From Cinnamomum chago (lineage: Eukaryota > Streptophyta > Magnoliopsida > Laurales > Lauraceae), in assembly GCA_038049695.1 (NCBI GenBank), contig CP142456.1, positions 67,855,922 to 67,919,921 on the forward strand: a stretch of DNA of 64,000 nucleotides. Direction: 5' to 3'. The position numbers were made by a program, and so were the translations under genes. Under the pieces are notes generated by a model. It did no database searches. It was not told the DNA's origin and saw nothing but the letters and a program-made list of their open reading frames with translations. Below are positions 22,152 to 52,888 of the stretch, in pieces (positions within the stretch are counted from its first letter, which is position 1; each line of letters starts with the position of its first letter).

Positions 22152-22590
22152 CACTACTATAAAAAAGAGTTTTTATCGGTTGCAAAAATTGCCCTATATC
22201 AGTTTTTCATATAACCGATATAATATCTTCAGTCAAGGTTTTTTATATCGGTTAATATTTTTTTATATCGGTCAATTTGTTTTTATATCGGTTACACAGG
22301 AACTGACATAATAATCTCGGTTAGAAAAATATGTGATATTAATTTCAATATTTTATATTGGTTATTATAAAACCGATATTATATACACATATTTTATATC
22401 GGTTGTATACATATATGTTATATCGGTTATTATAAAACCAATATGATATACACATATTTTATATCGGTCGTATACACATATTTTATATCGGTTATTATGT
22501 AACCAATATTATATATACATATTTTATAACAGTTATTATGAAACCGATATTATATACCCAATGATTTTACATCGGTCTTCAAATCCCTTA
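22152..22590. repeat. CACTA-2 left subterminal repeat array
   Basis: More than a dozen copies of TTATATCGGTT and its inverse AACCGATATA, often paired as hairpins, with TATACACATA between. In CACTA elements such subterminal repeats bind the TNPA-type protein. The same motif dominates 52355-52870 at the other end. Confidence 0.85.
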
Positions 22591-22800
22591 ATCGCCCGCG
22601 CGGGCTCAGTGGTTCTTTCCCTCCTTTTTATTTTTCCTTCCCTCCCTTCTCTTTCTTTCTCCATCATTCCTTCTTTCCTCTCACTCTCGCTCTCTTCTCT
22701 CCTCACTCTCGCTCTCTCTGCTCTTCTCTCACTACCGCGCTTTCTCTACTCTCTCTCTCTGCTCTCCCTGTCACTCTCGTTCTCTTTCTCTCTGCTATCT

Positions 22801-22909
22801 GCTGGGTATGTTAATGTGGATGAGAAGAGAGGGAGGAGTCTCTTTTACTATTTTGCTAAAGCAGAGGAGCATCCTGAGAAGAAGCCCCTTACTATCTGTA
22901 TGAATGGAG
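22801..22909 (+). pseudogene. Captured exon fragment of a serine carboxypeptidase-like gene
   Basis: One frame gives [20 protein letters not shown] followed by [16 protein letters not shown], the N-terminal region of plant S10 serine carboxypeptidases (family pattern GYV.V.E..GR.LFYYF and the oxyanion-region WLNGG; here the usual LW is changed to IC). A GT splice donor follows at 22910. The catalytic triad regions are absent. The 218-residue ORF spanning it is otherwise Ser/Leu/Phe-rich noncoding sequence. It lies just inside the left CACTA-2 array, so it is cargo. Confidence 0.8.
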
Positions 22910-23419
22910 GTTGGTTCTTCTTCTTTTGCTACTATTTTATAAGTGGGTCTTTTTATCTCCTTTTTTTCCTGTTTAATTTTTGGGTTGTAAAGATGAGACA
23001 TTGGAGTTCTTTTTTTTGCAATTTTGGGTCATGGGATATTAAAGTTTCACCTTTTTTTTTTTTTTTTCATTTCTCTCCTAACCATCTAGTCTTTTTTTTA
23101 GTTCTATCTCAATTTCAAAATGGTTGTTTCTTTCTTTCCTTTTTTTTTATTTTTATTTTTGGATTCTTGTTGATGGTACTTATGGTTATGGTTATGGTTA
23201 TGTTGTTTTTTCCCTAACTTGTATAATTTGTTTAGGCTTGTTAGCTCTACTCAGTATTTTCATTCCAGGAAGAAGCTTTATGTGCCTCTTTGACAGTGTA
23301 GTTTCTGTTGACTGTCAATGTTTCTCAATCTGTTTTAACCTGTTACGTTTGGGCGTTTGGGCGTTTGGTTATTTGGGTTTTATGGTATGGGATTTTGGTT
23401 GGCACTGTAGGTGTTTTGT

Positions 23420-23700
23420 AAGGGGGCTAGCCGCCAGACCCACGGTCAGCTTTCCAGGAAGCCTATTCTCTCAGGATGATTTTCAGCACGTCCTGCGGCT
23501 AACCGCCAGTCCACCTACGGCTAGCCGCAGTGCTAACCGTTGGAGTTCGGTTTGATTTCCAGAGACAAGTTTTTTAGAACACCCTCTTGCGATGACCCCT
23601 GCGGTTGCCTCACGGCTAGCCCCCAACTATTCCTGCGGCTAGCCGTGAGCCAACCTGATTCAATTTTCTGAGAGATAGACGTCGTGGATGGGGTGTGTTG
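23420..23700 (+). repeat. 281-bp Sirevirus-LTR-like insertion with 9-bp direct repeats
   Basis: It contains GCGGCTAACCGCCAGT and GCGGCTAGCCGTGAGC palindromic phrases in the same order as the LTR at 31090-31203 plus 51122-51270, with noticeable divergence. It is flanked by GTGTTTTGT (23411-23419 and 23701-23709). A nearby duplicate of the host sequence (23780-23863) lacks the insertion. It has no LTR ends or terminal inverted repeats, so the insertion mechanism is unclear. Confidence 0.65.
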
Positions 23701-24410
23701 GTGTTTTGTTTATTTCGGTTTTCACTTTTTGGTTGGTGCTGGTGTTTGTTGGCTTTTGTTTGTTTTGGTTTGGGAAGATGGGTTTCGTTTGGGCGTTCGG
23801 TTATTTGGGTTTTATGGTATGGGATTTTGGTTGGTACTGTAGGTGTTTGTTTATTTGGGTTTTGGAAGATGGTTTTTTTTTCTTGGTCACAGGGGAGTAA
23901 TTGAGCTAGTTGTTATCCTCAAATGCACAATTTACAGTAAGTGGGACATGAATAGTCACTTCAACGCACAATTATATCTCTGCATTTTCGAAGTCAATTT
24001 ACATATATGAATAGACCTGTGTTTTCTGAAAAAACAAATAGTCAAACCCATTTTATGAACAAAATCATTGTATGGGATTTATATTGGCTGGTTGCATTGT
24101 TTGGAGTGTTTGGATTGAAATAGAATCGTGACAAACCCAACTTATTGAATAGTTCATTGGGGCCGTGCAGTTGTCATCAAATTTTGTGTGCAGCTGCATT
24201 ACTCTTCTCAGGCATTTGTTTGTCATTAGATCTTTTTATTTCATCTTATTAATGTCAGTCATTTTTTTTCTGTGGATTATCTACATTACTCTTCTCTGTG
24301 GGTTAATTTTTTTAAATATTTGTATATGGTTTAATTGTGAATTTTTGAACTTGGTTGCTTTTGTATTGTTGTTTGGTGAATCTCTGTCCATGGATTTATT
24401 TCTACAAATC

Positions 24411-24499
24411 TTCAGCCAATCTGAAAGCTTTGCCCGAACGAGAATAACCAAGGTTGGAAACAAGGATATTCAGTTCGTTTGGTGCACACCAACCCAGGT
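24411..24499 (+). pseudogene. Unrecognised exon-like fragment
   Basis: Open segment reading SESFARTRITKVGNKDIQF then VWCTPTQ, preceded by CTTCAG (a plausible acceptor) and followed by CAGGTCTC (a plausible donor). The composition looks coding against its AT-rich surroundings. I do not recognise the family. It lies between the carboxypeptidase piece and the transposase in CACTA-2, so it could be another captured exon or a transposase leader exon. Confidence 0.3.
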
Positions 24500-24607
24500 C
24501 TCTCTCACATTAATTGGTTGTACATTAATTGGTTGTAATATTAGCATTATATGGCAATGACTTTCTGATTATTGCTTGTCTGTAGCATTTTATTGGGCTA
24601 TTCAGAA

Positions 24608-27723: not shown

Positions 27724-28649
27724 GTGAGTATACCCGTACTTAATAGTCTGATGACATGATTAATGTGAAATTCCTTCCCAGATCTTTTTTATGGTTTGTC
27801 ATTCTGTTTTGTTTGGTATGAATTTCTTTATGAATAGGTACACCTAATTTGTTGGGAGATTAAATTTTAATCTGTATTTGTTATTTTTGTTTATGGGATT
27901 TTTTGGAAACTCACTTTTAATTCGGTGTTGCAATTGTTGTCTTGAATGGCTGTTAACTGTAGTTCATGAACCATCACTGAGCTTGTGTAGGATGGTTGCT
28001 AACTGCAGTGAGCTTGTGTAACTTTTTATTCAGTTCAAAGACTCATCACTTTTTATTCAGTCCAAAGACCCATCAGTGAGCTTCTTTAGGATGGCTGCTA
28101 ACTGCAGTTAAACTTTAGAGTCCAAAAACACACTGATAAAGCAGGCCATGTTCATTTTCTTTAATCATGTGCAACAATTTCTCATCCATTCTCAGGAACT
28201 AGCTATTATTATCCAGTTGGCACAAAGAATAATTTGGCATTTTGTCACACTCTTCTCCATTATATATCATTGCACATTACAACAAAACTGAGTTGATGAG
28301 CTCAAGCTTGTGATCAAGTTTAAGCTTGATTTATGTTCCAAATAAGGTATTTGATTATTGAATTGACCCAAACTTGAGCTCACTTATGCTCTGCTTGTAT
28401 TTTATTCAAGCCAAGCTCAGTTTCAACTCTAGCTTGATTAATTGCTTCTGATCCAAGCTTGAGCTTGATAATGTGAGTGAGCTTGAAATTTGGGTGTGAA
28501 CTCAAATTGAGCATTAGCATTAGCATGATTATTTGCTTCATGTTCTTTGTAGGGGAGCATTTATGACCTCGTTCTATTATTATCCAGATGGTCCATCCTT
28601 AACTGATTTACACAATATTCATCCTGCAGTTACTCTTTAAAAAAAAAAA
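27724..28649. other. CACTA-2 interior, no gene
   Basis: Follows the tubulin fragment. It contains duplicated phrases (CTAACTGCAGT with CATCA.TGAGCTTGTGTAG) at 27970-28110 and many AGCTTGAGCT phrases at 28290-28510. No coding sequence is seen. A poly-A run at 28640 marks the approximate edge of the Sirevirus-type sequence. Confidence 0.4.
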
Positions 28650-29091
28650 AGTGTCTTTTCGGCTAGTTGTGAAAAGTCAGGCGGCTAACCGCATTCTGGG
28701 CCTGCGCCCTTTTAAGTTGCTTTTCGTTTCCCTCTTTTTCTTTCGGTTAGCTGCTATTCTCTTCCTTCTTTGGTCTTCTTCGTTGCTACGTATCTGATCA
28801 TCTTCTCCCTTCTTCCTCCAAGGCAGCTTCCCTTCTTTTTCTCTTATATTTCAGTTCTGTAGAATTATTTTCTTTTCCATTTTGTTAATAGTATCTGTTT
28901 CGTTTTGGTGTTTCTCTTTTCTTTCTCTCTTTCTAACTTCCTCCATTTCTCTCTTCCATTGGTTTCTTTCTTCATATTACTTATTGTCGTGTCATTTTCT
29001 CTTCCTTGTTTCTTCTAAATCCTGCCTTTTTGCTCTATGCTGTGTTTTCTTCCTCCTAGTGGTTTCTTGTGCACTCCAAGTGTTTGTAAAA

Positions 29092-30276
29092 ATGCCTCCA
29101 CGAATGAAAACAGCTGTGAACCGCCCTGCTAAACGAGGACGATCCACTACTGCCTCCTCTTCTCGTAGAACTAGATCTCCCTCACCCTCTAAGTCCACCT
29201 CTCCTTCTCTTACCCCTCCTTCTTCTCCTCCTCCACAGCCGGGCTCTGCTGTTCTCAAACCCAATGCCCAAATGCTGGCTGCTTTGAAAAAAAGATCAAT
29301 CATGGTTGAAAGACGCACTTTGCATAATGTTGTAAATCCCCATGAGTCAGCAGCCATTCTTGCTCAGGTCGGATGGGAAAACATCTTAGACTGGGGGGAC
29401 AAAACATATCCGTCTCTTGTTTTTGGCGTGTTTGCTTCAATCACTGGGGCAGTATCTTCCGTTGACTCATGTTCCTTCACAATTGCCTTTCGAAACAAAG
29501 AAGTTACGGTTGATCCCGATCTTATCTCTTCAATCATGAATATTCCAATGAACCCTGATGGTCTTTCCATGGTGTCTGACACCCTCACTGAAGCTGAAAA
29601 GGCCCAAGCTACTATTGTTCTCTGTGGTTGTTCTGTTAAATGGGATCCTAAGAACTTCCTTCCATTGGGATCCCTCGTTCCAAAATACAGGCTGTTGCAC
29701 CACCTATTCACCTTCAATGTCTATCCTCGTAAAGGAAATCGGACTGAATTAACTGCGTATATGGTAAATGTTCTTTCCAAAGTGGTGTCAGGTGTTCAAA
29801 TGTGTCTTCCCTCTCTTATCTGTAGAACCATTGTTCGCTTTCACCTCTCCACTGCCTCTAAGCCAGCAATTCCTTTTGGCTTCCTCATCTCTCAAATAGC
29901 TCGGTCTCTTGGTGTTCTCCGCCCAAATGAGCCTCCTATTTCCCATACACCTTTTGGCCCTGCTAATCTAATTCAGATGAATCTCTTTCCATATGAAGAA
30001 GCAGGGGATGTACCCCCTCATCCTCAACCCCAAGCCCCTTTAGCTCCTCAACATCAGGCACCTTTAGGGCTCGCTCCTTCCTCTTCACATTGACAGGCTT
30101 CCTCTTCATCTGTTCCCCGGAGTATTGAAGAACGGATGGATGCTTTCGAATGCAATCAGTCCAAAATCGAAAAGCTTCTAAAGAAGACTCTCAAATATCT
30201 CAGTGGACTGTCAAAGGTGTGCAAAACTCAAGATGCTACTATCATGCCTCTGTCTCCTTCACCTCCGTCGGATTAG
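29092..30276 (+). pseudogene. Extra ORF of Sirevirus-type element (putative plant transposon protein domain)
   Basis: I chose the start at MPPRMKT (29092), after a pyrimidine-rich leader. Residues 1-60 are basic and Ser/Pro-rich (KRGRSTTASSSRRTRSPSP). Residues about 75-290 fit the domain seen in plant retroelement extra ORFs: a GWENILDWGDKTYPSLVFGV segment, IMNIPMNPDGLS, FNVYPRKGNRTELTAYMVNV and IPFGFLISQIARSLGVLRPN. A Pro/Gln-rich tail follows. A TGA at 30091-30093 interrupts the frame, after which 61 more codons end in a short helix (RMDAFECNQSKIEKLLKKTL) at 30276. The next feature is a polypurine tract, placing it between pol and the 3' LTR. Function unknown. Confidence 0.65.
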
Positions 30277-30807
30277 TTCTATTGGGTATTCATAGCCACT
30301 TGTGTTTTTATTGGTTGTACTCTTTTTGGTGGTGTTCTTTTGGCTTGTGACTGCCCCTCCTATGGTTCTTTTGTTTAAACTTATGTTGGTTACTCTCTAT
30401 GGATGTTCACTGGATAAGGATGTTTTTATGGTCTTAGTGATTAACTGCTTTTATGCTTTAATTATCTATTATCTTCTTGCATTTATTGTCTGTCTTCTCT
30501 ACTTCCATGGTTATTTTATCTTGTTCAATTTGTGACAAAAAGGGGGAGTATGGTTTAAGTTTGCAGGGGGAGAATCCATCTCCATTTCTCATGCTTTTAA
30601 TCTCTGTTTGTTCGTGTTGTGCTTCTACAGGTTCATCTTCTCAATCTCATATGAAGAGCTATTCATACTAGTCTTGATGCCTTTTTGTTCTTGTATTCGT
30701 TTTTCAGTTGTAAAAGGTCTTGTACTTAGTATATGGTTGTTCTTTGAGTTGTTTTGGATATCTTCTGTAATCTTATATTAGCTAAATGATTTTGTCACGA
30801 CATTGAC

Positions 30808-30819
30808 AAAGGGGGAGAT
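30808..30819 (+). other. Polypurine tract of Sirevirus-type element
   Basis: AAAGGGGGAGAT lies directly before the LTR start TGTAAGTGTCACATG, as expected for the plus-strand primer. A second similar tract (AAAAAGGGGGAG) lies at 30536-30547, just downstream of the extra ORF. Confidence 0.7.
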
Positions 30820-31203
30820 TGTAAGTGTCACATGTCTGTGTGCACTGAGTTTTGTTTGTCAATTCTGCGCCAATGAGGTCCAAAGTTCTTGCCTCTCAAA
30901 TTGACTCAAGGAAGATCACATTCAAAAGGATTATCAAGCTTGTGGGAAAGTCCGGATTAATCAAAGAAGGTCTCCATTTGTGTTTGACAACCTTTTCAGG
31001 TAATTCATACCCAGACCAAACCCTTAGATCCCTGGGAAAAGTTGTGTTTTAAACTCATGTTTTTTATCCTTGATAATTAGTCCCTGTGGAAAGGGTCAGG
31101 TGACCCTACGGTCACCTTCGGCTAGCCGCCAAACCTGCGGCTAGCTTTCCAGTAAGCTGTTTCTCAGATTTTTTCTCTGTGCTTCCTGCGGCTAACCGCC
31201 AGT
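30820..31203 (+). repeat. Sirevirus-type 3' LTR, left part
   Basis: Begins TGTAAGTGTCACATG after the polypurine tract. Palindromic GGCTAGCCGCC, GCGGCTAGC and GCGGCTAACCGCC occur at 31129-31203. The LTR is broken exactly at ...CCGCCAGT by CACTA-1. Confidence 0.75.
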
Positions 31204-32025
31204 CACTACAACAATCTGCATAATTACAGACGTTTTTTAGCGACGCTTTTCAAAATTCGTCGGTAAAGATTAATTTTTCCCGACGTATATAATTTCGTCG
31301 GTGAAAATCGAACTTTTACCGACGTTTTTTATAAAACGTCGGTAAAAAGTGATCTTTATCGACGTTTTTTTACAAAACGTCGGTAAAAGTTCAATCTTCA
31401 CCGACGAATTTTAAAAAAATGTCAGCAAAAGTTGAATTTTATTATTAGCTTATTTTTTGAGGGAAAATAAAAATATGGAGTTTTACCGACGAAATGTAAA
31501 CGTCGGTAAAGGGTAATATTACCGACGTTTTAAAAATGAACGTCGGAAAAAGTCCAAATTTAGCTTTATTTTATTTTTGTAGGAAAAATAAAAAACATGG
31601 ACTTTTACTGACGTTTTTTTTCGTCGGTAAATCATTTTGCCGACGAAAATTGTATTTTACCGACGAAAAAAATCGTGGGTAAAAGTCTTTGTATAATTTT
31701 TATAATTTTTATTTATCATTTTGCTGACGAAAAAAATGTCGGTAAAATTCTTTTTTAATTTTTATTTATGATTTTGCCGACGAAAAAAACGTCGGTAAAA
31801 CTGTTTTTATAATATTTTTTATTTATCATTTTGCCGACGAAAAATGTATTTTACCGACGAGAAAAAATGTCGGTAAAAGTCTTTTTATAATTTTTATTTA
31901 TCATTTCGCCGACGAAAAATATATTTTACTGATGAAAAAAACGTCGGTAAAAAGTTTTTTATATTATTTATTTTATTTCTTATTTTGCCGACGAAAAAAA
32001 AACGTCGGTAAAGTATTAATTTTTC
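31204..32025. repeat. CACTA-1 left subterminal repeat array
   Basis: Roughly 25 copies of CGTCGGTAAA or its inverse, many paired as TTACCGACGAAAA with ACGTCGGTAA to form short hairpins separated by T-rich spacers of 40-70 bp. Such arrays in CACTA ends are presumed binding sites for the DNA-binding transposition protein. Confidence 0.85.
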
Positions 32026-32362
32026 CCTTTCCCTACACTATTTTCGCTCCCAATGACTCTCTCCCTCAAAAGCCCTGTTTTCTCTCTTTCTTCTCTCTCC
32101 CTCTCTCCCCCTCTCTTTGCTGTCTCTCCCGCCACTCCTCCAAAAGTCCTCTTTTCCCTCATTTCTCTCTTTCGTCTCTCTCTCTCTCGATCGATAGGCA
32201 TTCTTCCATTTCTTGCTAATTTACTGCTAAACCTGAAAAAGATGACCTTGTAATCTCATTCACCTCTTTCTCCTATTCCATTCTATTATATTGATTGCTT
32301 TTGATATTGGGGTTTTTGCTCATCTTCCTCCGTTTTGTTTTGTGGATTTTGGTCAGGAAAAG

Positions 32363-32925
32363 ATGGGTAACAAGGGGAAGAAATGGAAGCTTTGGAGGAG
32401 TTCCTCTGGAGAACATGGATCTTCGTGGAGGAGTCTTAAAGGAGGGCGTAGAGCGGCGTCGGAGGGATCTGATTGTTCTTCGGTAGCTGAAGCATTCAGC
32501 GCTGCAGTGGCAGCTGTGGTTAGAGCCCTTCCAAAAGATTTCAGGGTGGTGAGGCAGGAGTGGGCTGCAATCAGAATACAGACCGCGTTCCGTGCTTTCT
32601 TGGTAACTGGGTCTTCTTTCTTCTCTCCCCCAATCTTCCATTTCTTGCTAATTTACTGCTCAAAACATGGGGTTTGGTCTGTTTGGAACTGTAGGCTCGA
32701 AGGGCATTTCGGGCGTTGAAAGGAGTGGTGGGGCTTCAGGCATTGGTCCGTGGCCGGCAAGTGAGGAAGCAGGCTGCTATGACTATAAGGTGCATGCAAG
32801 CACTCGTCCGAGTTCAGGCCAGGGTCAGGGCTCGCCGTGTCAGGATGTCTACAGAGGGGTTGGCTGTGCAGCAACTGCTTGAAGTTCGACGCGGCAACAA
32901 ATATGATCTTTTGAAAGAAGCTGAG
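32363..32925 (+). pseudogene. Captured IQ67-domain (IQD) gene, first two coding exons
   Basis: Exon 1 (32363-32602, 80 codons from MGNKGKKWKLW) and exon 2 (32695-32925, 77 codons) join in phase 0 with a GT donor at 32603 and AG acceptor at 32693-32694. The product has the IQ67 domain: EWAAIRIQTAFRAFL, then [20 protein letters not shown] and [17 protein letters not shown], i.e. calmodulin-binding IQ and 1-5-10-type motifs rich in Arg. IQD proteins link calmodulin to microtubules. The next family exon (usually starting GWC) is not found downstream, so the gene is truncated. Both exons are free of stops, so capture is fairly recent or expression is tolerated. An upstream pyrimidine-rich leader (32040-32210) may be its captured 5' UTR. 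Confidence 0.88.
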
Positions 32926-32930
32926 GTAAC

Positions 32931-33070
32931 TACATTCAGATCTGGCCTTTATGCTTCTTTTAAAATGTTGCAATGCTTACATGTGTAAACAACAAATGGG
33001 TACATTCAGATCTGGCCTTTATGCTTCTTTTAAAATGTTGCAATGCTTACATGTGTAAACAACAAATGGG
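32931..33070. repeat. Perfect 70-bp tandem duplication
   Basis: The block from TACATTCAGATCTGGCC to AACAACAAATGGG at 32931-33000 is repeated without a visible mismatch at 33001-33070, just after the IQD exon 2 donor. Confidence 0.95.
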
Positions 33071-33448
33071 TGGTATGAATATGAACATAGGAACGTTCTA
33101 GCTTTCTATTTTCCTGTTACATTGTATGAGCCTTTGGATGATCTCTTGAAAGATTCATGAGTTACCCTTTTGGTTTTATGACTTTCTGGATTGTGTTAGT
33201 AAAATACTGTTGTAAGTTCTGATTTTGGGAGTATGCAGTTTAAGAAGTTGTTGTTTGAAGTAATGATGGAAAATTCTAGCTTGAAAGGAATGTGATGTAT
33301 AACTGTGATTTTGGGTATCATTTTAGGAATAATCTGAGGCAGTTCAGAGCCTATGACTGTAAACAACTGCTGCTGCTTTTTTTTTTTTTTTTAATCTCTG
33401 AAGTGAAAGTGGGAAAGGGTCTCTAATTTGATTTGGGTTTAGGAAACC

Positions 33449-33512
33449 ATGAAGAGATTGAGTAGCTCTGATTCCTTGGCTGCTGTGATTTCTATCCGTC
33501 CACCATCTATAG
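33449..33512 (+). pseudogene. Captured first exon of an HD-Zip class I gene
   Basis: MKRLSSSDSLAAVISIRPPS, followed by a GT donor at 33513, resembles the N-terminus of HD-Zip I factors of the ATHB5/6/16 group (MKR.SSSDS.). The homeodomain and leucine zipper are absent. The match is only about 20 residues, so this is a probable call. It sits between the IQD piece and the chromovirus in CACTA-1. Confidence 0.5.
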
Positions 33513-34678
33513 GTAACTTTTGAATGCCCCATCAAATGCTATTCTTTCATCAGATTAGGAAACTGGTAAAGAGAGGAAGTGATGGTAATAAGCATAACTT
33601 TTATTTGTTTTCAAATTAACTGCATGTCTAGGATATTGTCTTCACTGAATTCTGTTTTGGGTAGTCTCGTTTGGTATTACTATGGGTGGTAATATGTGTC
33701 TTTTAGAGCTCCCTCTTTTGGTGACATTAAGAAAACCCTCTGATTTTACTCCAGTCTTGGTCAAGTTCACCCTCTACTGTTAATTCTCCAATTTGAAAGC
33801 GGCTGATTTTTTTTTTTTACTAAAGCTGTTGTGTTCTCCATTGATTTGAGTTGAAATGAGTTGTGGAAGGGGTAGTCTTGACTCTTGACCCTTACCAACA
33901 GTGTTAGCTTCTTTAGACATGTCTACTTCAGTTTATGAAAATATATGGTAGATATCTTATCTGTTGCTAGTTGTGCCATTTGGTTGTCCTTGACTATTAT
34001 AAAAATAAATGCCCTCAAAATAGGCTTGATTCTTTTCATATGGATTTGTTCTTGATTGGCTGGCAGTGGCTTAGGATAATCTGATACAGGTTTTTTGGGG
34101 CATGATCCATCCATGATGGTGTCCACCGGAGCGATGAATTTGCTGAAAAGTGGACCCCACCTACCCATTGCTGGGCCAGACAAATGGTCTCTCTTTCAAT
34201 TGGAGCCCTTTTAATCCAAACCGGTCAGAAAGATAAAAGGTAACTGCTTTTATGAAAATAGAACCCCACCTATTCAGGAATTGTAGCTTACAGCCCATTT
34301 TCCACTGTGCAGGTGGTGTGCAGGTCCACTGCTCTGTGATATGGGATGTAAATCTTTTTTAATATTCTATTATAATTTTTTATTTTTTATTTTTCATATC
34401 ATCACTGCATTGGTGCTTGAATCGTGTGCTTGCATGCTTGTTGACAACTCCTAACCAAGACATCATTCATCCAATAGCTTGCAAGGGTAGGTTTGCAAAT
34501 ATGTATATAACTTGCATGGGTAAACTGACAAATATCTACGTCGTCTTTTTAGCTCCTTTGGGCCTTCTGCAGCCTCACGGAACTTAATGTATGTGTGTAA
34601 CCTTGCTGAGACCATGCATGTTACCTTACACAGATTGTTAGGTAAGTTGGGCGGGGCACGTGGGCACTTGGAAGATGG
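33513..34678. other. CACTA-1 interior, no gene
   Basis: Noncoding, AT-rich sequence between the HD-Zip fragment and the chromovirus. No exon-like open segment or RNA gene is seen. It ends in GATGG, the target duplication of the chromovirus. Confidence 0.45.
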
Positions 34679-35056
34679 TGTGAGGTCCCACCCTTGGTGG
34701 GCCCTCTAATTGCTATTTTATAGACTAATTAATTCTAATTTATGCTAATCTATACTAATTATATGCTAATTACTGCTAATCTATGCTAATTACTACTAAT
34801 CTTTGCTAATTATGGCTAATTACTATTTAATTGGGCTAATTAGGGGTTGATTAGAGAGATTGGTTAGATTCTCCTAAGTTTTTGGTTAGACTAGCTTAGT
34901 TGGGTTTATTTTTAATTAGGAAAGGGTTTTGGGTTAAACCTATGCTATTAGTGTTAGTTAGGTCCTTAATAGAGTTTTAATTAATTAATTAGGAGGGTTT
35001 AGTTTAAGCTAATGGTGCTCCTCTAGAAGCTTCCAGCCAAAGACCTAACTACCCTC

Positions 35057-38699: not shown

Positions 38700-38785
38700 G
38701 AGCTGGTCTCTAGGAAATAAAACACACTAGAAACCATAGGACATAGTAAGGATTCGAGTGATGGGATACGTGTGAGGACGATGGA

Positions 38786-41700: not shown

Positions 41701-42058
41701 GAGAGTTGGAGATGTCGCCTACAAGCTTCAGCTACCGCCAGAGCTTTCAGGAGTGCATGATGTGTTCCACGTCTCTATGTTGAAGAAGTACGTGGAGGAT
41801 CCGACGCATATTCTTCATCATCAGCCACTCAACATCCAGCCAGATGCTTCGTACGTCGCCAAGCCAGTTGCGATCATCGACACCAAGGAGCAGGTGCTCC
41901 GGACCCGAACCATTCATTGGGTGAAGGTTCAGTGGGAGCATCACACTCCGGAGGAGGCTACGTGGGAGCTACGCGACCAGGTGGAGAAGGACTATCCTCA
42001 TCTTCTACCTCAGGTATGTTCTAACTTTGTTTTTACATTTGGGGACCAAATATTTTAA
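38786..42058 (+). pseudogene. Chromovirus pol: protease tail, RT, RNase H, integrase, chromodomain
   Basis: One frame throughout. The protease remnant keeps [20 protein letters not shown] but lacks the catalytic Asp motif. RT has [32 protein letters not shown] and the catalytic FIDDVLVYS. RNase H has FTDASG, LELAAVVFALKLW and VVADALSRK. Integrase has a zinc-binding HHCC set (ADAHHNRYSIHPG ... CLTCQQIK), the Asp in TMDFIAGLP, the Asp in IVSDRD and the Glu in [14 protein letters not shown]. The end has a chromodomain-like [22 protein letters not shown] codons interrupt at 40172-40174 (RNase H) and 41192-41194 (between the second Asp and the Glu of integrase). There is no frameshift. Inactive as it stands and dependent on another copy for gag. 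Confidence 0.95.
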
Positions 42059-42071
42059 AAGGAGGGAATGA
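42056..42071 (+). other. Polypurine tract of chromovirus
   Basis: AAAAGGAGGGAATGA directly precedes the 3' LTR start TGTGAGG and overlaps the end of pol by a few bases. Confidence 0.8.
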
Positions 42072-45000
42072 TGTGAGGTCCCACCCTTGGTGGGCCCTCT
42101 AATTGCTATTTTATAGACTAATTAATTCTAATTTATGCTAATCTATACTAATTATATGCTAATTACTGCTAATCTATGCTAATTACTACTAATCTTTGCT
42201 AATTATTGCTAATTATGGCTAATTACTATTTAATTGGGCTAATTAGGGGTTGATTAGAGAGATTGGTTAGATTCTCCTAAGTTTTTGGTTAGACTATCTT
42301 AGTTGGGTTTATTTTTAATTAGGAAAGGGTTTTGGGTTAAACCTATGCTATTAGTGTTAGTTAGGTCCTTAATAGAGTTTTAATTAATTAATTAGGAGGG
42401 TTTAGTTTAAGCTAATGGTGCTCCTCTAGAAGCTTCCAGCCAAAGACCTAACTACCCTCAAACCCTAACCCTAATTCCATAAAACCCTAGGGCTAAATTG
42501 GTCCTTAATCACTCCCCCTAACCTATAAAATATCTCTTATCCCAAGGAGAACCCTAATCCCTATATTAGCCCCCATCACAAGAAAACCTCCAGCAACTGC
42601 TTCCCTTCCCATTCCTCTCTTCATTGAGCTGAGGCACCCACTGTTGCATTGCTGGAAATTCTTTCTCAACTGCTGCAAGAGCTGCTACTCCATCTTCCCT
42701 CTTCCTTTCTCATTCCATTCTTCCAGCTGCTGTTGTGGTTCTGTGCCGGAAGAACCACCTGGGTGCTACTTTTCTGCTGGAACCTCAACTTGAAGACTAC
42801 TGCTGCAGCCACTTCACCATCTTCCTTCCCATTTCATCCCTCCAAGCCACTACCCCACCTTCCTCTCTTCATTTCACTCATCTGTTACCTTGCTGGAAAA
42901 TCCCCTGGAGCTGTTGCTGCTGTGTTCTCATTCTTCTTCATTTCAGCGGGGAGCAGCCACCCCTTCATCTTCTTATTTCCCCTCTTCTTTCCTCTCATTT
43001 CCTCACCTGGGAGGTTCTGTGGTGCTGGGATATTTCATTAGAGAGCTCTGCTACTACTTCTACTTCTCCTCTGCTGTGCTGGAATTCCTTTTCTTCCTTA
43101 CTGAGCTGGATTTCTAATCCTTGAAGAGCTGCAACTTCTTCTCTATGACTGCTACTATTTCTGCTGGAATTCTTCATTAAGGAGCTGCAGCTGCTATATT
43201 TCTTCTTCTCCTTCTTCCTTGCTGAGCTGGGACCATTCTAGTTGTGCTGGGATTGTTTTGGAGCTGCAGCTGCTGTGTCATCATCTTCTTCTCCTTCCTC
43301 TGCATTTCAGCTGGAACTGGGCTCTCTCTTCTCTTATTTGTTTTCTCTCTGCAAACCTTCCTTCAATAGCTAAAAGGCAAGTGCAGCATACTGATAACTT
43401 AGGGGATATATTTTATTTCGTGATTCAGTAGTTTTCAGTTCATAAATATGTTCTGTTATGTTTTAGTTTCTACCTGGAGCTCTGTTTTTGGTTTGGATGG
43501 ATTTTGGCACTGATGGATGGGGGTTTCACCCCCCATTTGGAAGATCAGTGGGCCACAAGGTGTTAATGGATGGTTTGTGGAGTTAATTAATTTTTAGAAA
43601 AGTGTTGGTGAAGTTTGGAAAGGTTTGGAAGTGGTTTGGGCGAAAAAGGAGTCAAAACGGAGAAGTTGCAAAAATCCACCCGGGACTGAAAATGCAGTGT
43701 GCTCGGTCGACCGAGACCCCCCCCTCGGTCGACCGGCGACACTGAAATTCTGAAAAAAAAATGAGTCTCAATTAAATTTTCTGCAGACTCGACTTGACTC
43801 GACCGACAGTGTTCTGGGTCGACCGAGACCTGTCTGGTCGACCGAGAACACTGGAAAAAATGGAAATTTCAGCTCCCAGTTAGCTTTTCTCTGCAGACTG
43901 AGTTTCCTATTGTCTGGGTCGACTGGGACCTATCCTGGTCGACCGAGAACACTATATTTTTATGAAAAATTGGCCCTCGGCCATTTCCTTGCAGAAAATC
44001 CTTTTCAGTTAGCCAAGTTGACTTGGCCTTGACCAAGTTAACCTGGAACACACTATTACTGCAAGAATTGACTGAAAGTTGGTTTTTCACCCGAAACTCA
44101 GACTCCTTACACCCAAATCAACCTAATACTTAGGATTTACATTTAGAAAGTGTTTAAAGCTGGAACATCAATCTTTCTAAGGTTTTTAGAGTATGCGGTC
44201 AATCACCTAGGCCAGGTTGTTTGACCGGACACGCTGTAAGCCTTTAGAAATGAATTAAGTTGTCCAGGAAGCCTGATTCAGATTAGTTAGTGCACTCGGT
44301 TGATCCTCCCGGCCAGGAGATCAACCGAGCTCACAACACATCTGGTTCACCTGGAAAACCCTGATTGTTCCAGTTTTCTACATTTAAGAGATATGATCAG
44401 TTGTGGGGCCCATTGACCATCCAAATGAGCATTTATCAGTGTTCTAAGCCCGAGTCAACGGTGTGGCTCAACCTTGACTCGCGGGGACCACTGTTTAGTG
44501 TTTTGGTTGATAATCTAAGATGATTCGACCTTTAAAGAGTTGTCAACAATGCCCTTAACCACCTAAGCACCAAATACAGTATTTTATGGCATTAATGACA
44601 TCGTTTAAAGATCGAATTACCGGAGATAGACCCGAACCTAAAGTGGCCCATTACCTAGGATTGGACCGTTGCTTTTCCCTGTTGATTCTCTGATTGAAGT
44701 TTCTACTTCACTGTTATCATTTATTGTCATTCTTAGATCTTTAGTGTAGCTGTTTACTATTAATTGAACATAAATGGAGGACCTGAACCAGGGTATCTAG
44801 AGGTGACCCGATAGTGTGATTTTGGAGAACATTGACCCGTGTCTGTGTCTAGGCGGGCCCTTATTGGGCCTAAGTGTGGAGATGTGAACCCTTTAGCTGG
44901 AAGAGGTAGTTTTTATTGGACTGTTAAGTTATATGGATTGAAATGGAACTGTTTATCAGTATAAGTGGATTAGTTGCCTCGTATGGACAGTTTTAGACCA

Positions 45001-46092
45001 GGCCATGTACTGATGGGCGTTGGTATGGATCCAACGAGTGGGCCTGGACCTTGAATGAGATCCAGAGACTGTATTGAGATGTATAGACCTCTAGAGACTT
45101 GGATAGGACCTTGTTCATGCAAGGCAAAGCCTAGACAGACACAGACCTTAGAGTTATTCTCGAGTCGGCATGAACATTCACTCGGTTGATTTAAGCTCAG
45201 CCTGTGGACTGATCATCCCCGGTAGGAGCTAGTTGAGTATTGAGGAGCTATCATGATGAGCTGTATGGTTAAGACGGACGGTGTGATACCGTGCCGGTCT
45301 GGAGTGTTGAGATGATGAGTTGATGAGATGATTTGCGGGATTAGTAATTCCCAGCACCGATGAGATTTCCCCGCCGCAACTGTATTCAGTATGGGAGGGC
45401 CGCGGCATAATATCCCGCCGTATTCCAGCTCGTGTGAATGTGCCAGTTTGTTGTAGTAGTTTAGATGTTTATCTTTATACTGATTCTTTATGATTTAAAT
45501 GCACAACTGCCTAGTTCATTTCCCTTGCTATTCATTTAATTTAGTTTACCTGTCTTTACTTCCTTTGATATATATGTTCTATGTTAGTAGTATGCTGTAA
45601 CTTGCCAGATCTTTTAGATCTGACCCATTCACTGGTGCTTAGGCCTTGATCCCGAGATCCCAGACGATGCATTAGCTCTAGTGGAGGCGCCTGTCGCAGG
45701 AGAGTACGCGTGGGGCCCGGCCGACACGGATGTCGAGCCGGAGGGCGAGGAGTACTTACCAGGGTTTTGAGGGTCTCTTATGATTTTGGGTTTTGAGAGA
45801 ACAATTTTGTAGTGAGTTGGGTAGCATAAAAAATGTATAAACTTTGAGTAACACTGAATCTTTTAATTAGACTATTGTTCGGCTCACACTTAATATATAT
45901 ATCGATACCTATTGCTTCCGCTTAATTCTTATGTTTCCGCAATTTAAATGTTATTATTATATGGTTCAAAAAGTTTTAAATTGGACTTCACTGCGGCCTA
46001 CGATCTTGGAAGTTCTCGGATTTTCCGGGAAGTAGCGCGCCAACTTCGGGTATTCGAACGATTATATCGGTATCCGGAATTGGGGCGTTACA
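42072..46092 (+). repeat. 3' LTR of chromovirus (4021 bp)
   Basis: Same ends and order as the 5' LTR. Differences seen by eye are a 10-bp gain (ATTGCTAATT) near 42205, about 20 extra bases with a second palindrome near 43710, a short loss near 43262 in the GCTGC tract, and scattered substitutions. Confidence 0.95.
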
Positions 46093-46097
46093 GATGG

Positions 46098-46172
46098 TCT
46101 AAGAAGAAGGAGCTTAACAGAAAAGGCTTTCCCCAAGGTTTCATATTTGGGATTGCATCTTCTGCTTATCAG
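46098..46172 (+). pseudogene. Captured GH1 beta-glucosidase exon end
   Basis: Reads KKKELNRKGFPQGFIFG then IASSAYQ with a GT donor at 46173. This is the N-terminal signature of plant family 1 glycosidases (FP.GF.FG.A.S.YQ), including the Gln that contacts sugar in the active site. The chromovirus inserted just upstream of this exon piece (target GATGG). No other GH1 exon is visible in CACTA-1. Confidence 0.78.
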
Positions 46173-46241
46173 GTCCTTCTCTTCTTTCTTTCTTCCTTTT
46201 TTACATCCATCATTCATTAAAATTTACGAGTATTGATAAGT

Positions 46242-46490
46242 TCATAGGTTCTCTGATTTACAATCAGAGGCCAATTGTGGTTTTTTCTTCAAAATGTCAA
46301 CAATTAAATTGTTAGCTTTCTCCATTGTCTTCTTCAATTCATCTTCTGACGTTTGATACTTGTTGCAAAAAGATGCAATATGGATCAACATGCAAATACC
46401 ACCATCCAAAAGAGAGGCATGTGCCACTGGCTGCTGGCACTTGCATAGTATACCTTTCATAATGGGCTGAGCAACATTATTAGGACCCTA
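46242..46490 (-). pseudogene. Unrecognised exon-like fragment, minus strand
   Basis: On the minus strand an AG acceptor-like TTAGG near 46488 is followed by an open frame: [20 protein letters not shown], then [20 protein letters not shown], and a Lys/Glu-rich helix-like end, stopping at 46242. Composition and the splice-like border look coding, and codon spacing is unlike the AT-rich surroundings. I cannot name the family. It lies in the opposite orientation to the other CACTA-1 cargo. Confidence 0.4.
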
Positions 46491-47137
46491 ACATATCCTT
46501 TTAGAATGCAATACGAGCTTTTAGGTGCAGGATTGGGATCTAGAGGTATCTTTTTGTGTTATAGTTAATCAACTTAGTTGTTGAATCATTCAAGAATATA
46601 TTGCAGATTGTCAATTTCTTTTATGTTTATGTCTAATATCAGCGGTTTGTAGTTTTGCGTAGTTTTATGGGTTAGGAGTGGGACCATTTGGATGTCCATG
46701 GTATCAACTTTTATTGAGCTATGCTGTTGAAAATCAATGTGTTTGACTGCCTGTATAGTGTGGACTGAGCAGTGAGCACCTTTTTCAGATTGAAGGGGTG
46801 AAAATGCAATTTAAAAAGTGAGGGAGTCGTATTCCCAAAACCTTTGCTGTATTTTGTCTCAATGGTCTATCTGCAGGCCAAACTTTGATGTCTAGGAGAT
46901 ATCTGTTCTGGAAGGTTTTGAGGCTTGCTCATCCATGGATGGTTTCTGTTTGATCAACATTCTGGATGCCCAAATCATGAATTACTTGTATAGTGCATCA
47001 CATTAAGATACTGTACATATTGAAATACATCAATACACTAATTCCACTTTAATGGAATGTCTCTTGCTTAAATTGGCAGAGATACTGCTTGAACATTTTC
47101 CTGTTTTACTGAGTTTCTTTTGTTCTTTTCTAAATAG

Positions 47138-48324
47138 AAACTTGCTGTTAGACGAAGGGGGACACCTGAAAATTGGTGAATATTGGATTCAAATGCTTTA
47201 TGAACAAGTTGACCCTTTCCAAGATCACTGTATGTCATCTTATCAGTTAACTGCATGTAATTCTTTCATGAATAGTCAACTGCTTTGAGTTATGACCTAT
47301 GTCATTGTCTTTTTTCATTTATTATTTGAGAAAATGGATCTTCAGGTGAGTAATTATCTTGTTTTTACAGGTCAAAGAAATGATGAGGCTGCTATCATGG
47401 CCAATGCTCTTTACGATACTCGGAGAGACATATGTACATTTGCTCATATATTCTATAAGGTAAGAAAGGCAAGGTATTTAATTATAAAAAAAAGGAATTG
47501 TATTTCCTGTTTTCAAGTCCAAGGCTGTTTCTTTTATTTTCTATAAATTATAAGGTTAGTTTTGATTGTACAAGCATTCATCTTTCACTGTTTTCATGTA
47601 AAGTCCTAAGGAACTAAATGGGGGTCAATTTAAGACTATTTTCAGTGCACACAAACATACAACAATCGGGGGGTGGGCCCCACCTGGATGCACGTCAATC
47701 AAGGGATGCAAGGTGATGGATAGAATTGGATGTGGATTATGAGTGGACACAGATATAAGTCTAATATTATGATTCCAGTCCTTAATTTTAGGTCCAAAAA
47801 GTTGAATGGCTATGTATCATGCTAATTTTTTTCATTTGTTGGTGTGTTACATAGCCATTTAACTATAAAAAAGTTTTCCTTAAATCGATTAGTAAACCAT
47901 AGTTTTTCTCACACAAAGCACTATATTGATATACATAGCCATTTCATATCATATACATCTATGATTTCATTAATTTAGGAATGTTATAAAGATCACAATA
48001 GTGTTTTGCATGAAAAAACTGTAGTTTACTAGCATACTGATCTTGGTATCAACTTGAAGTCTCATTAAATTGAAATTGTCGCTGGGATTGTTGATGATGG
48101 ATGTATTGTAGTGCTTATGCCACTTGCAACTCCCAAATGAAATCTTAAGTTACTACCTTTATTGAACAGCTTCCCTATACTGTAGTTTCATTTGAAGTGT
48201 TCTTGTTGCAGATGTTGGAAGGACAAGTCTTAGTTTCTAGCCTGAGCATTGACTTTACACACTTCACATCAACTGATTCTGAACCTAAATTCAAGTTAAG
48301 CAAGTGCACAACAAGGATTAAAGA
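47138..48324 (+). pseudogene. Captured integrin-linked-type (Raf-like) kinase, three exons
   Basis: Three exons with proper borders: 47138-47229 (NLLLDEGGHLKIGEYWIQML, YEQVDPFQDH), 47371-47459 (RNDEAAIMANALYDTRRDIC, TFAHIFYK) and 48212-48324 (MLEGQVLVSSLSIDF, EPKFKLSKCTTRIKE). Together they match the activation-segment to lower C-lobe part of plant ILK/VIK-type kinases, including HLKIGEYW in place of DFG and DIC.F..IFY.MLEG. The N-lobe, catalytic loop and ankyrin repeats are absent. Intron retention shows DNA-level capture. The frame is open within each exon. Confidence 0.75.
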
Positions 48325-49741
48325 GTAAGAGGACTTCTTTCATCTTTTAATTTTTCTTAATCACTTTATTATAGGATGCAGTTTATGACATAGCTAGCTT
48401 GCCAAACTCGTGATTTGGATGTGACTCAGTAGCATAAATTTGCGAACACATGTATGCATATAGGAAAATGGTGTCAGCGCGCCCTTTGGTTAGTCTAAGA
48501 TTGGCCTAAACATGCACAAACTAGTATGATGCCCTTTTCCACCATTTTGAGCTGGCCATATTGCTCAAGCACCTTGTAGGTTGGTTTCATACAATCTCAA
48601 CCCACAAAATTTATAATTTCATACAACCTCCAATCATTTCCTAATTTTTTTGAAAAGAATCAATTCTATAATGGCACTGTAAAGAAATTCCTTCATTCTT
48701 TACAAAAAAAATTAAACTATTAAAGTAATTTGTTCATTTAAAAGCTCCACAACATGGATTTCTTTTCTTCTCAAAATTCTCAAAATAAGACATGTGGCAG
48801 AAGGTCCACTAGCCTTGGGGTTGAAAAAAACAAACGCACACTGTCCTTGATCAGCCCCCATCTAGCAGCAAACAATAGATATGATTTTTAGTTGTCTCGC
48901 CCCAAAACCCTCTTGTATTTAGTAGGCCAGTAGGTAGTAAACATTTCATGTGCTTTATTTTGAAAAGCAGAAGTGTAATTCGTGCTTGGAAGCTGCAACA
49001 GGATATGGATCCTACTAATATCAGCATAATCTTATCGTAACACAGGTCGAATTTGTGTCATCAGATCCTATACTCTGGGCTAGACCTGGCCTATTGAGTC
49101 TATAGTCTATACTTTGTATTTTCTTTTAGGTTCGGTCTTGGGTTTGACTCAACCCATTCAGACTGTTCAAATGAGCCAGTTAATCCTGGATTTCAAATTG
49201 ATCAGGCAAGGCTTTCAAGCCTTGGTCTATTCAAAGTTTGGACTTTTCAAACCAATGGACAACACTGCATAGCTCAGGCACAGAATTAATAGTGTAACGG
49301 AGAAAGAGGTGTGCTACTCAGGGCCCAACTCTGGCCTAATATTTAGATATCTGAGCCCAAGCTGGGCTTGAACTCTGCGTGCACATCAAAACTCAGGCTA
49401 GATCCTGAGCCCAAATCCAAACTGGCCCACCCCAAATTGCATTGTCATGATCTGAGCCCAAGTTGCATCCTGTTTATACATTCTTAGGTTAATTCATATT
49501 TCTGTCATAGGATGTAATTTGTCGTGATTGAAGGTTGGCAACTGTGATCCTTTCCTAGACATCTGGATTGAAAGAAATATATATTCCTTCTGATGCTTCA
49601 GAAGATAATTTTAAGTAAAAAGCATGTTGTTGACAACCATTTGATAAGATGACAGCTTCTTTTGATTCTTGCATCCCCAAAAGAATATTACACAACACAG
49701 AATATCTAATGGTTTTTTGAATGGGCTTTCCTTTGCTGCAG
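48325..49741. other. CACTA-1 interior, intron-like, no gene
   Basis: Noncoding sequence after the kinase exons. A short open stretch at 48967-49010 (RSVIRAWKLQQDMDP) is too short to assign. GAGCCCAA.CTGGGCT-type phrases repeat at 49340-49470. Nothing else is seen. Confidence 0.35.
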
Positions 49742-49999
49742 TTGTCTCTAAACTCAAAAATTTTGTTATTACAAGTGAAATGGTTCAGAGCCTTCTATGA
49801 TGATTTTGAGATTTTCACCAAGGACCAAGAGTTTTTGGTTTCACCTGCTGAAATGCAAGAAAAGAGTTCCAATGAAGTCGCAAAAGATCCTCTTGGTGAA
49901 GCTCGGAAAAAGGTACAACAGGAGTTTGGCAAGGAGTTCGCTGAAATTATGGCTATAGGACATCACAAAATTCCTGTAACCAAACAGCCCTTCTTGTAA
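49742..49999 (+). pseudogene. Unrecognised terminal exon-like fragment
   Basis: After a CTGCAG acceptor (to 49741) the frame reads LSLNSKILLLQVKWFRAFYD, then DFEIFTKDQEFLVSPAEM and a charged tail ending HHKIPVTKQPFL before a stop at 49999. About 85 residues, acidic and lysine-rich, looks like the last coding exon of a real gene. I do not recognise it. It is the last cargo before the right CACTA-1 repeats. Confidence 0.45.
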
Positions 50000-50389
50000 A
50001 TTCTGTTTCTCTTGAAATGAACGGTCTTTTATCATGAGAGAAAAAGTTACAGTGTGCATCATAAATCAGACTTAGCAGAAACACAATTGGGCTTATCTTT
50101 TATAGGAAGTTGATTGACGAGAGTTGAGTCCTGTCCATATGGTGGTGTTATCAGCAGGGCTTGCAAGGTAGCCCACACCTTCTTTTAGCTTATTTGTATA
50201 TGTATATTGGACATATATATGGGACTGTATCGTTATTGATTGTAATATTTGTTTAATGAGATGAATGATTTGATGAAAAATGGAGATGGTTATTTGTTTA
50301 TTTAGCAATTTTTTGTTTGAATGTATTTTTTATATTGAATAGGTTTGATACAGGTGTACAAATAGGTTTAAACGAAAAAAAAAATTATA

Positions 50390-51118
50390 AAACAAAATAA
50401 AACACTTTCACCGATGAAAAAATCCTTTTTATTATTTTTACCGACGAAACAATACGTCGGTAAAACGCTTTTTATTAATTTTACCGACGAAAAAAATACG
50501 TTGGTAACATCTTTTTTATTTTTACCGACGAAAAAAATACGTCGGTAAAATCCTTTTTTATTTTTTTTAATTTTTTGTTTATTTTTACCGACGAAAAAAA
50601 TACGTCGGTAAAATCCTTTTTTATTTTTTTAATTTTTTGTTTATTTTTACCGACGAAAAAAATACGTCGGTAAAATCCTTTTTTATTTTTTCTAATTTTT
50701 TTTGTTTTCTTTTCCCGACGAAACTTAACGTCGGTAGAAATTTTTTTCATTTTTTCTAAATTCTTTTGTTTTCTTTTGCCGACGAAAATAAACGTCGGTA
50801 AAAGTCTTTATATTTATATTTTTTTATATTTTTTTTTTACCGACGAAAAATAAACGTCGGTAAAAGTATTTATTAAATATTTAGAAATTTTAAATAGTTT
50901 TAACGACGTTTTAAAAACGTCGGTAAAGGAAATTAATCGTCGGTAAAAATTCAAATTTTTACCAACGAAATTTATTTTCGTCGGCAATAGGTTCTGTCCA
51001 CCATTTTTTGCCGACGTTTGGCCGACGAAAATTTTTTCGTCGGTAAAGGTTTTACCGACGTTTTTGTGAGTTTTGGCGACGAAAAATTTCTTCACTAAAA
51101 GTGCATTTTGTTGTAGTG
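50390..51118. repeat. CACTA-1 right subterminal repeat array
   Basis: Contains three near-identical tandem units of 62-63 bp, each with an ACCGACGAAAAAAATACGTC hairpin (starts 50524, 50587, 50649), then more diverged TTACCGACG/CGTCGGTAA pairs up to the terminus. Open frames on the minus strand here (Lys/Phe-rich) are repeat artefacts. Confidence 0.85.
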
Positions 51119-51860
51119 AGTGCACCCACGGTTAGCCGCAGAGCTAACTGTGGGATTTCGTTTTGCTTTCCAGAGGCTGTGTTTTTGTCAAATCATCTTG
51201 CGGCTACCCTTGCGGCTGCCTCACAACTAGCCTCCAACTGTTCCTATGGCTAGCCGTGAGCTAACCTGATTTGAAATTTTAGACCGTTATTTGAAATCGG
51301 CTAGCCGTTGGTCTAAAGGGGCTAGCCGCCAATATAGTCGTTGGATCTTTTCTATAAATCTGGAGCTTCTTTCTCCATTCACAGTGACTCTTTTTAGAGA
51401 GCTTTTGCAGGCTATTTTGTTCCCAACATATCTTAGCTCTCAAATCTTCTTCCAAACACTCATGTAGTACATTTAGGAAAATCCTAGAGCTCCATTAGCT
51501 CCAAGATGAGTGCGTTGTGTGAGAAGTTGCCTGTGTCTATTCTTTGTGGCATGATTTTCATTTCTATATCTATATTGTGGGATTTGTTATGTATGATAGG
51601 TCATCACTAAGATTCAATAAACACACACACTTGAGCTTATCTACTCTCATCTAATTGTATCTCTTTGGTATTGTTTAAGCTGTCTTGTTGAACACATATG
51701 CTACTTAAGTCTTTCTCTTCTTATGTTTGTTTTGTTATCTGTTTTGGTTTTATTAAAAGTGCCCTAAAAAGTTTAAAATTGGTAATTGATTCCCTTAGTC
51801 CTATTCACCCCCCCCCCTCTAGGACTTAGTCATTGGCCCTAGCGTGCAGTATCAAGGACA
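51119..51860 (+). repeat. Sirevirus-type 3' LTR, right part
   Basis: Resumes with the duplicated AGT and GCACCCACGGTTAGCCGC, continues through more GGCTAGCC palindromes, then has a TATAAAT box at 51352-51358. The CTATTCACCCCCCCCC tract is at 51801-51816. The 3' end is one of two CA dinucleotides (51848 or 51860); no target duplication could be assigned. Confidence 0.65.
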
Positions 51861-51965
51861 ACCTACATTAGAGGTAGGACCTTCAAACCCTACACAGGTT
51901 TAGTCATTTGTTACATTGAGTGCGCGCAATTTCACAGATGATTCATTTAGTGTAAATTTTTTCAG

Positions 51966-52046
51966 AAACTGATCATAGCGCCAGTAAAAAAGGAGTTGAG
52001 TCTTGCCTTCAAGGGAAGCCAAAAGATGGTTGTTGAAGCTCTGGAG
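51966..52046 (+). pseudogene. Captured glycyl-tRNA synthetase exon
   Basis: An 81-bp exon, AG acceptor at 51964-51965 and GT donor at 52047, reads KLIIAPVKKELSLAFKGSQK then MVVEALE. This matches plant glycyl-tRNA synthetase (family APVKKELGLAFKGNQK), upstream of class II motif 3. It lies between the Sirevirus LTR and the right CACTA-2 repeats, so it is CACTA-2 cargo. No neighbouring GlyRS exon is present. Confidence 0.78.
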
Positions 52047-52129
52047 GTAAATTATGATTATTTATCTTTTGGTTTTTTTGTTTATATATAGTTCCAACTT
52101 TTTGTACATCCCATGGAAGATGATGTAGA

Positions 52130-52131
<2 letters not shown>

Positions 52132-52178
<47 letters not shown>

Positions 52179-52179
52179 A
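52132..52179. repeat. (AT)n(AC)n microsatellite
   Basis: About 17 TA units followed by about 7 CA units, inside a ~110-bp segment that recurs at 26828-26927, where the TA run is much shorter. Confidence 0.95.
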
Positions 52180-52354
52180 TATTTCCATAGAGATTTGTCT
52201 AGTCAAGCTTATGTTAATTATTAATTAGTTATATATATATGATCACTTTATTAATTTGTATATATAGTGCAAATTTTTATTGGTGTACAGTGTACTGCAA
52301 TGGTACTGCATCAATGCAAATTCTTTTGATAAAAAAAATGCATATATAATATTA

Positions 52355-52888
52355 AATCGGTTACAGAACAAACGATATAATACAATCCAAAAAAACCGAT
52401 ATAACAAAGCCCTTTATAACCGATATTATAAATTATTTTTATATCGGTTTCACTCTTTTTTATATCGGTTTTACAGTAATGTATGCTATAATTTCAGTCT
52501 CAAAACACATCAGTTCTTCGAAAACCGATATTATAAATAAATAATTTTTATATTGGTTTCACTATTTTTTATATCGGTTTTACAGTAATGTATGCTATAA
52601 TTTCAGTTTCAAAACACATCAGTTTATCGAAAACCGATATGATAAATATTTTTTATATCAGTTTTACTTTTTTTTATATCGGTTTTACAATAATATGTGT
52701 TATAATTTCATATTCAAAAGACATCAGTTGTCCAAAAACCGATATGAAATATTACACATATTATATCGGTTATAGTTGTTTATTATATCGGGCGTACTTA
52801 TATCGGTTTGAAGTTTACTAAAAAACCGATATAATAAGTCTTTTATATCGGTTTTTAGCCGATATAAAAACACTTTTTTCTAGTAGTG
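52355..52888. repeat. CACTA-2 right subterminal repeat array
   Basis: Tandem blocks of about 120 bp built from AAACCGATAT, TTTTATATCGGTTTTAC and AATGTATGCTATAATTTCAG (copies near 52480, 52588 and 52690). The array ends with TTTTTTCTAGTAGTG. Confidence 0.85.

Follow-up and report, generated by a model that had tools for sequence, protein, structure and literature searches.

CACTA transposons with captured genes, added domains or an enclosed satellite array are described in the available parts of two published accounts (PMC8978399, PMC4290129). Sireviruses are marked by multiple AGGGGGAG polypurine tracts, an AT/TG attachment site and CGG-CCG boxes in the LTR, according to the accessible portion of their description (PMC2829016). 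Here we analyse a locus where the two kinds of sequence are joined. It lies in a window of 64,000 nucleotides (C6:67855922-67919921) from the Cinnamomum chago genome (1.06 Gb, 14 contigs), the source of all the copies discussed below. The first-pass annotation had read this locus as a four-level nest, in which an outer CACTA element (CACTA-2) holds a Sirevirus-type element, whose 3' LTR is split by another CACTA (CACTA-1), itself the host of a chromovirus. The termini and target duplications given for three of these levels are right to within a base or two, and the three corresponding insertions each have empty sites in the same genome. The Sirevirus layer, however, came with CACTA-2. The locus is thus very probably a three-step nest upon a chimeric CACTA, with three insertions at the locus and one inherited layer.

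The outer CACTA element

CACTA-2 and the features recognised in it, apart from the nested layers, are the following.

22152..52888, + strand: CACTA-2, outer element, inverted ends CACTACTATAAAAAAGAG.../...CACTTTTTTCTAGTAGTG, target duplication GGA
23416..23667, + strand: fragment of about 250 bp resembling the Sirevirus LTR (about 79%), also in full-length copy L041
24569..26290, + strand: CACTA transposase pieces, Transpos_assoc and tnp2 (Transposase_21), Pfam 67.6, 162.1, 65.6 and 51.5 bits
26266..26269, no strand: internal deletion point, from comparison with copies L039 and L040
27633..27722, + strand: captured beta-tubulin exon piece, E 1.8e-12

Inverted ends, a 3-bp target duplication (GGA at 22149-22151 and 52889-52891) and a tnp2 transposase identify this element as a CACTA; the tnp2 pieces of the window copy are interrupted by in-frame stops. 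The outer termini belong to one element and not to different ones, since an independent full-length copy (L041+L011) has both of them, within a duplication of its own, CTT. When the two outer flanks were joined without the element into a query of 454 bases, we obtained 43 match rows, 11 of which cover the query from base 1 to at least base 447; five of these 11 lie at 67.95-68.16 Mb on the chromosome that carries CACTA-2. Three join-spanning loci were sequenced, and they present a single GGA in two cases (L082, L083) and GGG in the third (L081). The sequence flanking CACTA-2 is accordingly a repeat, and those of its other copies that we checked are empty.

At the deletion point, L039 has about 5.4 kb of extra sequence and L040 about 5 kb. 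In these longer copies the extra part of about 5 kb encodes DUF4218, DUF4216 and a piece of Peptidase_C48 (just below the cut-off); Transposase_24, which some CACTAs should contain, was looked for in two further pieces and not detected. The beta-tubulin stretch is also present in L039 and is missing from another copy, L064. Three CGG-CCG boxes (at 23496, 23518 and 23636) occur in the LTR-like fragment, and an exon-like piece at 51959-52030 matched nothing when searched.

CACTA-1 and its gene pieces

31204..51118, + strand: CACTA-1, CACTACAACA...TGTTGTAGTG, target duplication AGT, subterminal CGTCGGTAAA repeats
32363..33512, + strand: captured piece of an IQ-motif protein, with introns, Pfam 15.6 against a cut-off of 20.3 bits
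46098..46172, + strand: captured glycosyl hydrolase 1 exon piece, E 8.4e-4, adjoining the chromovirus duplication
49772..49852, + strand: captured cytokinin dehydrogenase piece (weak), E 0.012, Pfam 26.5 bits for a cut-off of 23

CACTA-1 is likewise recognisable as a CACTA by its inverted ends, its subterminal repeats and a 3-bp duplication (AGT at 31201-31203 and 51119-51121); no transposase appeared among those of its pieces, covering part of the frames, that were given to Pfam. A full copy found elsewhere (L062) lacks the chromovirus and has its own duplication, ATA. The Sirevirus LTR runs up to 31203 and continues at 51122, and 25 of the 29 other CACTA-2 copies that we compared have a single AGT followed by GCAC at this point, in an uninterrupted LTR (three have another trinucleotide and one is unaligned). 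The reading of CACTA-1 as the element that splits the LTR therefore holds.

Both CACTAs carry gene pieces, as had been proposed: beta-tubulin in CACTA-2, and in CACTA-1 glycosyl hydrolase 1, an IQ-motif protein, which we take to be an IQD, and, weakly, cytokinin dehydrogenase. These pieces differ among the relatives of CACTA-1: with 46098-47500 as the query, 16 of 19 non-self loci match parts of the query only.

We also observed thirteen near-identical loci (L049-L061) around a stretch of 577 bp shared with CACTA-1 (46842-47416). Their context differs from that of CACTA-1 and includes another gene piece, glycosyltransferase-like by eye. This set is a recent burst.

The innermost chromovirus and the order of the layers

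34679..46092, + strand: chromovirus, target duplication GATGG, LTRs 34679-38682 and 42072-46092, primer site TGGTATCAGAGC at 38688

The chromovirus is flanked by GATGG (34674-34678 and 46093-46097), and its LTRs of 4004 and 4021 bp differ by 36 substitutions over 3989 sites (K 0.0091). Its placement within CACTA-1 is confirmed by three of the 19 non-self loci (L043, L044, L045), which are empty at the site, the flanks of 34679-46092 being joined there with a single copy of GATGG; at the remaining 16, the matches are confined to other parts of the query. The pol region is of the Ty3 type and comprises the end of the protease, reverse transcriptase, RNase H, pieces of the integrase and a weak chromodomain (Chromo 20.7 bits, E 3.9e-4, below the cut-off of 25.1), with two in-frame stops. 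No gag was recognised in the internal part, which begins near the protease end. The element is a deletion derivative, and would have needed help from other copies to move.

The divergence of LTRs and paralogues, which had been suggested as a means of dating the layers, gives values of 0.0091 for the chromovirus LTR pair, 0.0125 between CACTA-1 and its copy L062, and 0.060 between the CACTA-2 flank and its nearest empty paralogue, the last two being bounds between copies rather than insertion ages. The series 0.0091 < 0.0125 < 0.060 agrees with the order of insertion that the nesting implies. That order can be read from outer to inner, as claimed; taken as a history, it applies to three of the four layers, those that inserted here.

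Could repeat copies have been wrongly joined in the assembly? In favour of this, every part of the nest is a repeat. However, exact duplications occur at three levels, the targets appear in single copy in paralogues, and independent loci show the same structures, which makes an artefact very improbable. The restored junctions of CACTA-2, CACTA-1 and the chromovirus all have counterparts among other genomic copies; for the chromovirus and CACTA-1, these empty sites are paralogues in the same genome and not the orthologous locus of another plant.

A truncated Sirevirus between the CACTAs

28636..31203, + strand: Sirevirus remnant, first part (linker domain, PF20167-like ORF, polypurine tracts, start of the 3' LTR)
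29092..30090, + strand: PF20167-like (env-like) ORF, 43.4 bits, Pfam cut-off 45
30541..30817, + strand: three AGGGGGAG polypurine tracts, at 30541, 30565 and 30810, the sole ones on the + strand of the window
30820..31203, + strand: Sirevirus 3' LTR, first 384 bp, TGTAAG...
51122..51854, + strand: Sirevirus 3' LTR, last 733 bp, ...TATCA

Several Sirevirus hallmarks are present in this layer. The AGGGGGAG tract is repeated, its last occurrence at 30810 lying 10 bp ahead of the 3' LTR with the AT/TG attachment site in between, and the LTR, complete at 1117 bp once its two parts are put together, contains four CGG-CCG boxes. A copia pol and a pair of LTRs, on the other hand, were not found for the remnant in the window. 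In a real Sirevirus at C1:66650200-66656900 (L080, L068, L079), the one such locus that we pieced out, this ORF has a copia pol (RVT_2, 236 bits) directly upstream and the LTR downstream. The window is homologous to this element (L080/L068) from 28636 as far as the end of the LTR, at 51854; the pol of L080 has no match within the window, and a search of CACTA-2 for a 5' Sirevirus LTR returned nothing beyond the fragment at 23416-23667. The same order of pol and ORF is seen at L066, where the pol was recognised by eye and the ORF by Pfam (92 bits); a second candidate Sirevirus locus, L084, showed no homology. The ORF of the window stops at 30091, while other copies read through to 30273. By its sequence, then, the layer is genuine Sirevirus material, as had been recognised, but a 5'-truncated remnant and not a whole element.

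The remnant is shared by the CACTA-2 family

Copies of the host element were sought with an internal CACTA-2 query (51119-51958), for which the best 40 of 1123 candidates were scored. The 30 loci extracted include the window itself and leave 29 other CACTA-2 copies, which are the closest ones, so that remnant-free copies may exist outside this set. (A terminus pattern built with the variant base of the window matched 3 times and is unusable as a copy count.) The remnant is at the same place in all 29: in each, a match to 29.7-31.2 kb is followed, after a gap of at most about 45 bp, by a match from 51119 onward. The right junction, TATCA/AGGAC at 51854, is common to the 29 copies and to L064, and the left junction, near 28630, to the four copies examined (4/4). 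The CACTA-2 terminus (52887-52891) is reached by 28 of the 29, CTAGTAGTG is present in 27, and the sequence past the terminus varies from copy to copy.

L064 is a CACTA-2 too, and one of five protein matches with an identical score (695.3 bits, with an open frame of 496 codons). In a tree built on the 5' portion of the ORF, the five sequences whose CACTA-2 context was checked (window, L039, L040, L041, L064) form one group together with L078, with a support of 1.000, and the real Sirevirus L068 falls outside it.

Since none of the 29 other copies has the remnant at a different position, it arrived with CACTA-2 and did not insert here; and since the junctions are common to copies with different flanks, they point to a single ancestral acquisition followed by amplification with the CACTA family. 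The history implied by the first-pass annotation was one of four independent insertions, the Sirevirus entering this particular CACTA-2 copy. It agrees with the nesting geometry, which is as described, and with the identity of the remnant, a real Sirevirus with an exact LTR end. Yet independent insertion cannot produce the same right junction in 29 of 29 copies, and the same left junction in four of four, at other places in the genome. The history could be saved if these copies were segmental duplicates of the locus, but their flanks differ. We therefore give this history practically no credit.

How did the remnant enter the family? The events that we envisage begin with a tnp2-encoding CACTA family, CACTA-2, that once gained the 3' part of a Sirevirus, from the linker and the PF20167-like ORF through the polypurine tracts to the full 3' LTR. 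A Sirevirus may first have inserted in CACTA-2, its 5' LTR, gag and pol being deleted afterwards, a sequence of events suggested by the right junction, which is the exact LTR end. Alternatively, gap repair or template switching may have copied the remnant in once a CACTA had excised, as has been proposed for the capture of genes by CACTAs. Its left edge falls within an A-rich stretch common to Sirevirus and CACTA-2, other captured pieces sit in both CACTA-2 and CACTA-1, and capture mediated by CACTAs is described in the available parts of two reports (PMC13317346, PMC4290129), all of which would suit such a copying event; the exact LTR end on the right is, however, more simply explained by insertion. 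The AGGAC site beside the LTR is without the partner that would prove insertion over capture. We regard such copying as a possible but rather unlikely origin.

Once formed, in our preferred view by insertion and truncation, the chimera multiplied through CACTA transposition, as the junctions that its copies share and their different flanks show. One internally deleted copy then landed at 22152-52888, duplicating GGA; CACTA-1, carrying its gene pieces, went into the Sirevirus LTR of this copy, duplicating AGT; and last, the gag-less chromovirus inserted in CACTA-1, duplicating GATGG.

Selection on the captured ORF

Is the PF20167-like ORF maintained by selection within CACTA-2? For 31 close copies, two of which consist largely of gaps, nonsynonymous relative to synonymous change stands at 0.57. 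Five control frames span 0.46-1.03, a range that includes this value, and constraint within CACTA-2 is therefore not supported. A set of 13 sequences that includes divergent ones gives 0.36, against 0.59-1.04 in five control frames. The constrained pairs in this set are those with divergent copies, among them the Sirevirus L068; the window compared with L064 and with L078 gives 0.72 and 0.82. The low ratio is accordingly tied to the divergent copies. As these include a Sirevirus, the constraint seen in the alignments is best assigned to Sireviruses.

One may imagine CACTA-2 as a stable hybrid transposon that profits from making the PF20167-like protein or from use of the LTR as a promoter, the ORF family then being an accessory module passed among Athila, Sirevirus, MULE and CACTA elements. 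We consider this improbable.

At C4:81459300-81466300 (L065), we observed a PF20167 ORF whose neighbour, on the opposite strand, is a MULE transposase; the ORF's open frame of 339 codons also occurs in several matches elsewhere.

Neighbouring repeats

Other repeats lie on both sides of the nest. A satellite array with units of 172/344 bp (813-9787) runs straight into a CACTA-1-like end near 9999, which has CGTCGGTAAA repeats and terminates in ...GCTGTAGTG; in quinoa, a CACTA enclosing a satellite of 171 bp is described in the accessible part of that account (PMC8978399). The chromovirus family of the nest is also represented by a solo LTR at 11494-15367, which has AGAAT at either end and a K of about 0.217 to the LTRs of the nest. 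A likely solo LTR at 17564-19762 (TGTTAGGG...CTTACA, with ATAAG on both sides) has its sequence also in CACTA-2 copies L016, L018, L029 and L037. Finally, 59599-62830 looks by eye like the start of a gypsy-type retrotransposon, with a primer-site-like sequence, TGGCGCCGTT, and a gag-like ORF.

Comparison with known systems

The nest was at first called unusual. This is overstated, nests and CACTA gene capture being well described even in the parts of the literature available to us (PMC4290129, PMC8978399, PMC13317346). A CACTA family with a Sirevirus 3' end did not appear in the titles and abstracts searched, subscription journals falling largely outside that search.

The chromovirus shares reverse transcriptase, RNase H, integrase, a weak chromodomain, a 5-bp duplication and long LTRs with chromodomain Ty3/gypsy elements; it differs from them in that no gag was recognised, its protease is cut and it contains two stops, so that it looks helper-dependent. 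PF20167 is also the family of an extra ORF in an LTR element, Athila of sunflower, as described in the available part of that study (PMC11728184); here, unlike there, Sirevirus-like copia elements and CACTA-2 carry it, and it also neighbours a MULE transposase. With Sireviruses (Ty1/copia), as partially accessible in PMC2829016, the remnant shares repeated AGGGGGAG tracts, the AT/TG site, CGG-CCG boxes and an ORF between pol and the 3' LTR. Unlike them, it is without recognised gag, pol or intact 5' LTR, and moves inside a DNA transposon.

The closest systems are the CACTAs with captured genes of Chenopodium (PMC8978399) and of wheat chromosome 3B (PMC4290129), both known to us from part of the text. 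CACTA ends, tnp2, 3-bp duplications and pieces of host exons are common to these and to CACTA-2, and the longer CACTA-2 copies also share DUF4218, DUF4216 and a Peptidase_C48 piece with them. CACTA-2 differs in that the linker, ORF and 3' LTR of a Sirevirus are constant components of its family, where the described elements, in the text available, have fragments of genes, satellites and other domains. Here the 3' end of a retrotransposon, including an ORF and a whole LTR, has become fixed in a DNA transposon family and been spread by it. When a nest is read from a single locus, a layer inherited in this way can be mistaken for an event of its own, and this would mislead dating and ordering. 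Nests of this kind are ordinary in plants; the chimera, a variant of CACTA capture, is the more interesting part.
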